From the NCBI GenBank assembly GCA_019307815.1, contig JAFDIV010000016.1:22401-86400 (forward strand): a stretch of DNA of 64,000 nt, in the 5' to 3' direction. Below are positions 61,680 to 64,000 of the stretch, piece after piece. Each line of letters opens with the position of its first letter. The stretch's first letter is position 1. Position numbers and translations under genes: made by a program. Below the pieces are notes generated by a model. It worked only from the letters and a program-made list of their open reading frames with translations. It did not search any database and had not been told where the DNA came from. This DNA is from Deltaproteobacteria bacterium. GTDB lineage: Bacteria > Desulfobacterota > DSM-4660 > Desulfatiglandales > Desulfatiglandaceae.

Positions 61680-62670
61680 ATGACCACCACAGAATCTTTT
61701 GTAGGTATTGACGTATCCAAAGATGAGCTAGAGATTAGCATTAGGCCCACTAACAAATCCCTAACCTTTGCCAACACCGAAGATGGTATTGCTCTAATGG
61801 TCGAGCATCTAAAAACCTTATCTCCCTCCCTTATTGTCTTAGAGGCTACGGGCGGCTACGAAATGGCCGCTGTCAATGCACTGGCCTCCAAAGAGCTCCC
61901 CGTAGTGGTTGTCAATGCACGGCAAATAAGAGACTTTGCTAAATCTATTGGCAGATTAGCAAAAACCGATCGCATTGATGCCCAAGTCATCGCCCATTTT
62001 GCACAGGCTGTTCGTCCATCCCTGCGGCCTCTAAAAGACGAACAAACCCAAAGACTTGACGCCCTTAACACCAGACGTCGTCAACTAGTAAAGATGATTA
62101 CAGCCGAGCAAAACCGCCTACACCAAGCCCCCAAATGGACTGCAAAGACTATAAAATCTCATATCTCCTGGCTCAACAGAGAGCTAAAGAAAATCGACAA
62201 GGATATCTCTAACCTTATCAAAGGCTCTCCCATATGGAGAGAAAAGGATGCTGTTCTACAAAGTTTCAAAGGTGTGGGACCTATTACCTCCAGTAAGCTT
62301 CTTGCATCCTTACCTGAGCTGGGTACTCTCAGCTCCAGAAAAATCTCAGCCCTTGTGGGCCTTGCTCCCCTAAACAGAGACACCTGCCTGCAGCAGGCAG
62401 GGTGGTAAGTTTAGGGGAACACGGGGTACATGGGGAGGCAGGCGTGACGTACGCTCTAGCCTTTATATGGCCGCTCTGAGTGCCTCGCGTTCTAACCCCG
62501 TAATAAAAGATTTTTACATGAGGCTTACCCAAGCAGGTAAACCTCACAAGGTTGCCATTACCGCATGCATGCGGAAGATGTTAGTGATACAGTACCGGAA
62601 AAATGTTAAAAAAACACTTGACAAAAAACACAGTTGCTGTCGGCTGAGATGCAAAGCCGGCCGCACGTAG
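61680..62670 (+). pseudogene. IS110-family transposase, frameshifted by a 19-bp insertion
   Basis: The N-terminal DEDD RuvC-like domain shows VGIDVSKDELEIS, VLEATGGYE and AKTDRIDAQVIAHFA, giving the four acidic residues. The C-terminal Transposase_20 domain has FKGVGPITSSKLLASLPELG and ALVGLAPLNRD, and resumes in another frame as RGTRGTWGGRRDVRSSLYMA and NPVIKDFYMRL. Between them sits CCTGCCTGCAGCAGGCAGG (62383-62401). Deleting exactly those 19 bases restores GAC-AGT-GGT-AAG-TTT (D-S-G-K-F), the wording expected for the family at this place. So the break is one clean insertion. The start ATG at 61680 follows GGGAGGAG. Confidence 0.9.
62383..62401. repeat. 19-bp palindrome inserted in the IS110 transposase gene
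   Basis: CCTGCCTGCAGCAGGCAGG, inserted between GACA and GTGGT of the transposase gene. It shifts the frame and brings a TAA at 62406-62408. It differs by one base from the copy at 63913-63931. Confidence 0.85.
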
Positions 62671-62969
62671 TGTCCATCAATAAACCAAAGATTTATGGGC
62701 GGCGTTGTCAGCAGCCAAAATCCGTTGATCGTTCACCGTTTACCGTTTTTACCCCAAATGTCTTGGAACTATCAGTATGCCACTCCTAACTAACAGAGAA
62801 CAGAGGGCAATGGGATATTCCCAAAGCGGGCCTATTTTGTCCGCACCTTTGGATACGGACTCCCCGCCTTTCAAGCAGGTCCCCAGTTTAACCCTCGGAG
62901 CCAGCCAGCCTGCTGCGGCAGGGATGGTGAAGGGGGTAACCTGCCTCCTAACTGACAACCCATTATGTC

Positions 62970-62989
62970 ATTCCCGCGAAAGCGGGAAT
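62970..62989. repeat. Dispersed palindrome ATTCCCGC-GAAA-GCGGGAAT
   Basis: A perfect eight-base stem with a GAAA loop; second copy of the element at 52470-52489. It is flanked by GTC and CCAG as in typical members. Confidence 0.75.
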
Positions 62990-63013
62990 CCAGAAAATTA
63001 GCTATTGTGGACT

Positions 63014-63034
63014 CCTGCCTGGCTGCCAGACAAG
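63014..63034. repeat. Decayed relative of the 19-bp palindrome
   Basis: CCTGCCTGG-CTG-CCAGACAAG: the arms match apart from two G-to-A changes, and the length is 21. It is probably an old copy of the CCTGCCTG/CAGGCAGG family. Confidence 0.4.
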
Positions 63035-63159
63035 TGGGCGGGTTGCTGTCGGCCAATTACACTTGTTTCCTTATATCGGAGCCTTAGACAGGGCATAACC
63101 ATGAAGCAGGGAAAAGAAGCTTGATATGTCACCAGGGTTCTGATAGGATAATGCCAAAT

Positions 63160-63236
63160 GGTGGGTGTAGCTCAATAGGTAGAGCACTGGGTTGTGGCCC
63201 CAGCGGTCGTGGGTTCAAATCCCATCACTCACCCCA
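63160..63236 (+). tRNA. tRNA-His (GTG anticodon)
   Basis: It folds as a full cloverleaf. The acceptor GTGGGTG (63161-63167) pairs with CACTCAC (63226-63232). The D stem is GCTC/GAGC, the anticodon stem CTGGG/CCCAG holds loop TTGTGGC with anticodon GTG, and the T stem GTGGG/CCCAT has loop TTCAAAT. The extra 5' G (63160), opposite C at 63233, is the histidine identity element, and CCA is encoded (63234-63236). A terminator follows at 63251. Confidence 0.96.
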
Positions 63237-63250
63237 TTAGAAAAATCAAG

Positions 63251-63282
63251 GGGTTGCGGCAAGTCGCAACCCTTCTTTTTTC
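63251..63282 (+). terminator. Rho-independent terminator of tRNA-His
   Basis: GGGTTGCG (63251-63258), a six-base loop, CGCAACCC (63265-63272), then TTCTTTTTT. It is an almost ideal intrinsic terminator 15 bases after the tRNA. Confidence 0.9.
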
Positions 63283-63596
63283 GACCAGCAAGAGCGTTCC
63301 CCACAATATTCCCCACAAAAAAAGCAAAAATCACCGTGACTGGCGCCTAAGAAAACCCTATCGACGACCATTACAAGCTGGTGCTAGAAATCCATTCAAG
63401 ACTTTGCCTGTCTTGCCGGACACAATAATTTGCGCCATATCTTGTTGTTAACCTGGGGCAAACCTAGCTAACCGCAATAGTTCCTTTTTGGCGTCGACAA
63501 GTTCCATCCAATTAATGGGATAACCATCGGGAATAAATTGCAAATAGCAGGTATGCCAGATCTTCATCGAAACATTTAACGGTTGGCCTGACATGA
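63283..63596. other. Gene-free region between tRNA-His and the NucS-like fragment
   Basis: A 314-base stretch. The plus strand right after the terminator (TTCCCCACAATATTCCCCAC) and a 39-residue minus-strand frame at 63448-63567 (FIPDGYPINWMELVDAKKEL...) could be remains of integrated DNA. I cannot name either. No integrase is visible. Confidence 0.3.
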
Positions 63597-63863
63597 TACA
63601 GACAGGATGAAGTCACGTATAAAATTGATCTTGAAAATAAGAAACTAATCAAAGTTCCTAAGACCTCTTTTAGTGCATTAAACCTTAAAGAACGCTTTGA
63701 TATTCAAGAGTGGATTGAAGGCACTCCTGAATTTTTAGGTGAGGATTTGCTAATCATCGGAAAGGAGCTTGTTCTGCCATCTGGAAGACGCCTTGATTTG
63801 CTTGCTATAGATCAACAAGGAGCTTTAGTGGTAATTGAATTAAAAAGAGATGAATCGGGATAG
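63597..63863 (+). pseudogene. NucS/DUF91-like PD-(D/E)xK nuclease, N-terminal fragment
   Basis: About 88 codons reading DEVTYKIDLENKKLIKVPK, RFDIQEWIEGTPEFLGEDLL, LVLPSGRRLDLLAIDQQGAL, then VVIELKRDESG and a stop. LDLLA-...-IELK is the D-x(n)-E-x-K nuclease core of NucS/DUF4268-type proteins, which normally continue for 200 or more residues after KRD-x-SG. There is no start codon with an RBS at the 5' end. The 3' side is cut exactly where the group II intron end begins at 63860. It is therefore a gene interrupted by an intron and perhaps also 5'-damaged. Confidence 0.7.
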
Positions 63864-64000
63864 GGGAAGGTCTCACGACCTTCGCCCTCCCACACCACCG
63901 TGCATACGGGTCCCTGCCTGCTGCAGGCAGGCGCACGGGGCGGTTCATGCGGCCTTTGCTAAAGACTCGTAATGATCTAAGAGGGAAAGGAGCCCTCTTT
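63860..64000 (-). mobile_element. 3' end of a bacterial group II intron (domains V and VI), truncated by window end
   Basis: On the minus strand GAACCGCCCCGTGCG...GACCCGTATGCACGGTGGTG (63893-63946) matches the domain V wording of LtrA-type group II introns as I know it. GGAGGGCGAAGGTCGTGAGACCTTCCCCTAT-type sequence (63860-63890; GAAGGTC/GACCTTC stem, GTGA loop) then forms domain VI with a terminal AT. The reverse-transcriptase gene would lie to the right, outside the window. Domain V carries a 19-bp palindrome at its tip. The intron ends exactly at the break in the NucS-like gene. Confidence 0.7.
63913..63931. repeat. 19-bp palindrome inside the group II intron domain V
   Basis: CCTGCCTGCTGCAGGCAGG. 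Removing it leaves CCGTGCATACGGGTC-CGCACGGGGCGGTTC, the uninterrupted domain V (reverse strand). It is one base different from the copy that breaks the IS110 transposase. Confidence 0.8.

Follow-up and report, generated by a model that had tools for sequence, protein, structure and literature searches.

A palindrome of 19 bp that occurs both in an IS110 transposase gene and in a group II intron raises the question of whether so short a sequence can itself be mobile and, if so, in what form it moves. Both copies lie near the end of the window, as we term the whole 64,000-nt stretch of DNA analyzed here. The two exact copies and a three-mismatch variant were located at the positions given by a first-pass annotation of the window (Table 1). 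This was supported by a shuffle control, in which the windows yielded a mean of 0.01 matches and three matches were reached in none of 100 shuffles. The annotation had also noted a decayed relative at 62909–62922; the decayed unit was retained, although its extent is better read as 18 nt. A genome-wide count, which the annotation had proposed, revealed 83 copies at ≤3 mismatches, 18 of them exact, in the host genome (4.1 Mb, 75 contigs), whereas the reversed pattern used as a control gave no matches in the same genome. The 48 copies that were read represented 35 contexts. Unit versions of 20 bp (8) and 21 bp (3) were found near 19-mers. Among the other features of the window are a tRNA-His gene (63161–63236, plus strand), located downstream of the IS110 remnant and ahead of the intron, and an open frame of 2,066 aa (52571–58771, plus strand), which by eye resembles a long predicted secreted or repeat protein.

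Table 1. Units, host elements, and host repeats in the window (positions within the 64,000-nt stretch).
Feature	Position	Strand	Remarks
Unit, three-mismatch variant	61647–61665		15 bp upstream of the IS110 reading frame; empty in the C27 IS110 copy (93% identity, 123 columns)
IS110 transposase, part upstream of the unit	61680–62382	+	DEDD_Tnp_IS110 and start of Transposase_20
Unit, exact consensus	62383–62401		Breaks the IS110 transposase gene
IS110 transposase, part downstream of the unit	62404–62610	+	Rest of Transposase_20; from the first whole codon
Decayed 18-nt unit	62905–62922		In a GTAGCCAG/GATGG host repeat; junction filled and empty elsewhere
Empty hairpin host repeat (ATTCCCGC-loop-GCGGGAAT)	62968–62991		Filled by the unit on C5 and C17
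Possible decayed 21-nt relative	63014–63034		From sequence alone; likeness to longer variants by eye
Group II intron domains V and VI	63854–63945	−	RF00029, 17.5 bits, E = 0.33; weak, below the gathering score of 40
Unit, exact consensus	63913–63931		In the apical loop of domain V of the group II intron

The reading frame upstream of the unit at 62383 ends in ALVGLAPLNRD, the downstream frame starts with GKFRGTRGTWGG, and both halves match Transposase_20. A protein search gave 7,994 matches; among the 120 listed, 112 contain PLNRD, which in 111 runs straight into SG or NG. The sole exception is the protein of the window itself, and the uninterrupted proteins include relatives 94% identical over the searched piece. 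Thus, exactly 19 bp interrupt the gene, and their removal restores it, as the first-pass annotation had stated; the opposite case, in which all IS110 copies would carry the 19 bp as a fixed part, disagrees with the 111 of 112 examined proteins that have no interruption. Within the host genome, all four copies covering the site carry the unit (C20, C27, and C75, with a decayed unit in C36), which indicates that the insertion predates the spread of those IS110 copies. The copy on C75 has an extra unit at a second site; neither C27 nor the window copy has a unit there. In the public IS110 relative P0008, the first site is read through, and the residues change at the second site of C75 in a way that, by eye, fits an insertion. 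Since P0008 is apparently interrupted at the second site (compare L042, 1646) and not at the first, the two sites seem to have been filled independently.

The unit at 63913 lies on the minus strand and was placed in the apical loop of domain V by a weak RF00029 alignment (Table 1); no RF00029 match in the window reached the gathering threshold. The 19-base excess in the intron, which the first-pass annotation had stated, is read from this weak alignment. A Bipolaricaulota record, L219, contains a unit at the corresponding position of domain V, beside a GAAA loop, in a match (28.1 bits, E = 0.0044) that is under the gathering score of 40 and has its 3′ end cut off. The end of the intron in the window adjoins a frame with MmcB-like and NucS_C matches (63600–63863), and the contig ends shortly after; the intron probably interrupts this frame.

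The precision of insertion was assessed by comparison with empty homologs. In total, 248 sites were collected, of which 227 had no neighboring unit. An empty homolog of at least 40 bp with at least 80% identity was available for 38 of these 227 sites, corresponding to 20 distinct contexts. Before counting, alignments in which the subject had at least 12 additional bases around the junction were removed, as were subjects that themselves carried a unit; nested cases and the 62383 site were also left out. Filled and empty versions differed by exactly 19 bp at 35 of the 38 sites and in 17 of the 20 contexts, with no duplication or loss of the target in those 17, whereas in the remaining three contexts the alignment close to the junction contained gaps of 1, 1, and 5 bases. 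The 17 exact pairs include several short or simple-sequence alignments (e.g., L127, L019, and L144); long pairs with 90–99% identity were represented by the IS110 pairs, L012, L107, L295, and L275. Hence, the comparison with relatives proposed in the first-pass annotation did reveal empty sites, and its claim that the 19 bp move gained support. The 19-bp sequence is likely a real, very small mobile unit, and likely among the smallest mobile DNA units known.

The hosts of the unit are unrelated and include IS110, an IS256-type transposase gene, intergenic repeats, and other units. In the IS256-type gene on C23, two units lie 12 bp apart, with the pieces AVVFI, DGKS, and FAEDE in one frame; the part downstream matches Transposase_mut, and no Pfam match was obtained for the 96-aa piece upstream. 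At this locus (L351, G000:C23), the units at 3818–3836 and 3849–3867 fall within the conserved VVFIDGKS motif. The flanks of another pair (G000:C1, 2134–2152 and 2165–2183) are nearly the same as those on C23, so that the broken insertion sequence seems to have been copied along with its units. Five repeats of the ATTCCCGC type were found in the host genome: one, in the window, is empty, three contain the 19-nt unit, and one contains another insert. In the three filled repeats, the unit occupies two different loop positions, and two of them show an additional one-base loop difference from the empty copy. The four GTAGCCAG/GATGG junctions comprise two filled by exactly 19 nt (C15 and C37) and two empty ones (C1 and C10); in a search of 25 genomes, this repeat was matched in the host genome alone. 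In addition, units were nested inside other members of the family at L008 and L241, both with empty counterparts.

In some relatives, most of the copies read had been multiplied by one host repeat and not by the unit. G016 contains 120 exact copies, and all 17 sites read there sit in one host repeat; in G037, one host repeat holds 18 of the 19 sites read. Both genomes were considered as insertion hot spots and rejected on these counts. A longer repeat, ccttgca/tcttcggcaa, carries the unit at a fixed place in G016, G020, and G024 (e.g., L018, L031, and L059); it is often located at contig ends in G016, and a unit-free copy is present in L213.

Analysis of the target sites revealed a junction preference. 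Across 135 contexts, C was the first outward base in 49% of the flanks (background, 24%), whereas A occupied this position in 7% (background, 27%). A frame of at least 150 codons ran across the joined flanks at 18 of 45 sites, as compared with 91% of 2,000 random positions in the gene-dense window; insertion sites avoid open frames. The large host repeats are often hairpins. Hairpin loops as a general target looked compelling by eye in the largest of these repeats, yet they were rejected, as the general tests were non-significant (p = 0.12 in the folding test, with 61 contexts; p = 0.29 and 0.35 in the rank tests, with 80 and 30 contexts, respectively). Stems of at least 6 bp were nevertheless in excess, being present in 12 of 110 contexts versus 3.1 expected (p about 1e-4); by set, the counts were 8 of 80 (2.4 expected) and 4 of 30 (0.7 expected), the two sets sharing some contexts. 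Long hairpin stems are a minor target preference and not the rule.

The substitutions within the unit provided information on its structure. In a collection of 183 units (unit sequence by context), 118 were unchanged, and 32, 27, and 6 had one, two, and three changes, respectively. Ten of the 27 two-change units were compensated on a pairing of positions 1–5 with 11–15 (i with 16−i, or 24−i on the other strand), whereas 5,000 random draws from the observed changes averaged 1.2 and never exceeded 6; none of the 27 was compensated on the full palindrome (i + j = 20). The six three-change units contributed four compensated pairs on 1–5/11–15. The compensated pairs cover 2–14, 3–13, 4–12, and 5–11, that is, four of the five stem pairs. 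The covarying examples are not all independent, since they come mostly from the host genome and four of them share ATTCCCGC-type repeats. Searching 85 genomes of the order for the pattern recovered 11 sites with C at position 3, six of which had G at position 13 and none at position 17; all six belong to the host genome, and most were already within the covariation set. The tag and the loop remained mostly constant while the stem positions changed in compensating pairs. This indicates a unit of the form CCTGC-loop-GCAGG, with a 5-bp stem, a 5-nt loop, and a constant, unpaired CAGG tag (CCTG when read from the opposite strand). What counts against this layout is the folding of the consensus alone: it forms a perfect inverted repeat about a single base, and its most stable fold was the full palindrome (−8.0 versus −4 to −5 kcal/mol). 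Among the compensated variants, some did take up the short hairpin when folded. The term palindrome, used in the first-pass annotation, is probably not a functional description, given that the compensatory changes follow the shorter hairpin and tag. The compensated variant CTTGCCTGCTGCAAGCAGG was found in three genomes in different contexts, which suggests that the altered form is still mobile.

The unit is widely distributed. Copies at ≤1 mismatch were present in 12 of 41 genomes (the host and 40 relatives). A scan of one genome per species returned at least 115 stretches with the exact 19-mer versus about two expected by equal-base chance. According to the titles of the 80 matches listed out of these at least 115, the taxa include, non-exhaustively, Brocadiaceae, Desulfobacteraceae and other Deltaproteobacteria, Gammaproteobacteria, Bacteroidota, Ignavibacteria, Chlorobiota, Bipolaricaulota, Acidobacteria, Chloroflexi, Spirochaetaceae, Elusimicrobiota, Omnitrophica, and KSB1. 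Most of the records are metagenome assemblies, in which single cases may be misbinned, but isolates such as Algoriphagus, Belliella, and Pedobacter are also represented. Another 12 stretches with the exact 19-mer were found in viral contigs.

As for what moves the unit, we lean, at somewhat better than even confidence, toward an inserted multi-copy unit that combines a hairpin of 15 nt (stem of 5 bp, loop of 5 nt) with a 4-nt unpaired tag and that would enter DNA in the form of a folded single strand, through the action of an enzyme encoded elsewhere. The folded strand would then be the moving form, nicking and joining would be performed in trans, perhaps by an HUH-like single-strand nuclease, and the tag may belong to what the enzyme recognizes. 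The non-significant hairpin-target tests count against such a single-strand route, which might predict insertion into hairpins. No enzyme could be linked to the unit at 65 scanned loci with Y1 transposase matches or in the unit regions on C23, C40, and G002:C109. By eye, the latter three regions contain metabolic and housekeeping-type genes and broken insertion sequence copies, and the idea of a parent element or enzyme cluster near the units was rejected for them; no parent element with the same ends was noticed in the unit-rich regions read. The Pfam check covered two pieces of C23, and C1, C72, and G023:C108 were scanned for units alone. A more far-reaching version is doubtful, and we offer it tentatively: the 19-nt tagged hairpin would be the smallest known mobile DNA unit, crossing phyla, moving as a folded single strand, being joined beside a C without target duplication, and favoring hairpin loops as targets, among them that of the catalytic domain V in group II introns, by means of an undescribed single-strand enzyme.

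The first-pass annotation had suggested a REP-associated tyrosine transposase (RAYT), for which the unit would be a REP element with an unusual tag. The layout of a hairpin with an unpaired 4-nt tag does match that of REPs (PMC3733652), and Y1_Tnp matches are present in the host genome (8) and in 20 of the 22 unit-bearing genomes. However, Y1_Tnp is as common in relatives generally (36 of 41 genomes), so that its presence does not discriminate, and the unit-bearing genomes G089 and G100, whose completeness is not given, had no such match. The 65 loci (35 and 30 new) are a part of all Y1 matches, some cut by contig ends, and none had units on both sides. Any unit-like sequence was present at four of them: L033 (inside IS110), L037 (degenerate), L069, and L193. 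Thus, a RAYT as the mover was not supported and was rejected; we consider it unlikely. Owing to the missing Y1 linkage and to a tag that is neither GTAG nor CGTC, we do not class the unit among the REPs borne by a RAYT, despite its similar build. At L347 (Chlorobiota), a different inverted repeat (1070 and 1576) surrounds the Y1 gene, as expected of a RAYT with another REP.

Insertion of an RNA copy into a structured RNA, followed by reverse transcription, has been proposed for small hairpin elements; for the 19-mer, movement of this kind appears improbable. This route would agree with the units located in the apical loop of domain V in two distinct introns from two phyla, both matches being below the gathering score, and with the excess of long stems at targets, and RNA-mediated movement has been discussed for yeast GC clusters (PMC4478555); nonetheless, most contexts are not hairpins, and many are outside obvious transcripts. 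The perfect inverted repeat of the consensus would suit a conventional transposase that moves double-stranded DNA with minimal ends, but this was already disfavored and is very improbable, given the lack of target duplication in 17 of 20 contexts, the compensatory changes off the inverted repeat, and no full element with these ends in the loci read. Least credible is an immobile unit spread by host repeats alone. The single repeats dominating G016 and G037 and the 62383 insertion common to the IS110 copies of the host genome are in line with it, but 205 sites represent 135 contexts, and the exact filled and empty pairs in unrelated hosts could be reconciled with it if precise deletion of 19 bp had produced the empty sites.

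REPs and the small dispersed repeats (SDR elements) of cyanobacteria pose the question of how units of about 20 nt move. The present family combines exact empty and filled pairs, a structure backed by covariation, and a preferred junction base with a host range of many phyla, so that the mover enzyme can be sought directly. It also indicates that transposase genes can be broken, and the catalytic domain of an intron occupied, by a hairpin too small to carry the usual ends of a transposon. A text search of an open-access library found no description of the 19-mer sequence; the main text of RepRanger contains neither CCTGC nor GCAGG, and that of the tagged-REP paper (PMC3733652) contains neither CCTG nor CAGG.

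Tagged REPs are palindromic hairpins with an unpaired 4-nt GTAG or CGTC tag at one end, and 5-bp stems are known among them in Thauera (PMC3733652). By the covariation on 1–5/11–15, the 19-mer shares this arrangement; however, its tag fits neither motif, and it was found outside the neighborhood of Y1 transposase genes, none of the 65 loci scanned having units on both sides. REPINs are likewise mobile, non-autonomous hairpins of bacterial genomes, but they are inverted doublets beside RAYT genes (PMC3116915), whereas most sites of the 19-mer lack a neighboring unit. The GC clusters of yeast mitochondria are short GC-rich inserting hairpins with a constrained stem and are flanked by direct repeats, AG or ACT (PMC4478555), whereas no duplication was seen for the 19-mer. 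The exact 19-bp differences in 17 of 20 contexts also set it apart from a MITE of a conventional transposon, for which a target site duplication would be expected.

In its behavior, the unit seems closest to the SDR elements of cyanobacteria, which may be regarded as the nearest precedent. Work by Elhai et al. in Genome Res in 2008 reportedly described those of Nostoc and relatives as hairpin units of 21–27 nt and is said to have found compensatory stem changes and nested insertions. To our knowledge, SDRs are confined to one cyanobacterial group. SDR5 inserts precisely into the short HIP1 motif without loss of host sequence (PMC4390886). The 19-mer resembles these elements in being a very short hairpin unit with precise empty and filled sites, insertion into itself (L008 and L241), and compensatory stem changes; it differs in having another sequence, a shorter length of 19 bp, and a presence in many phyla.
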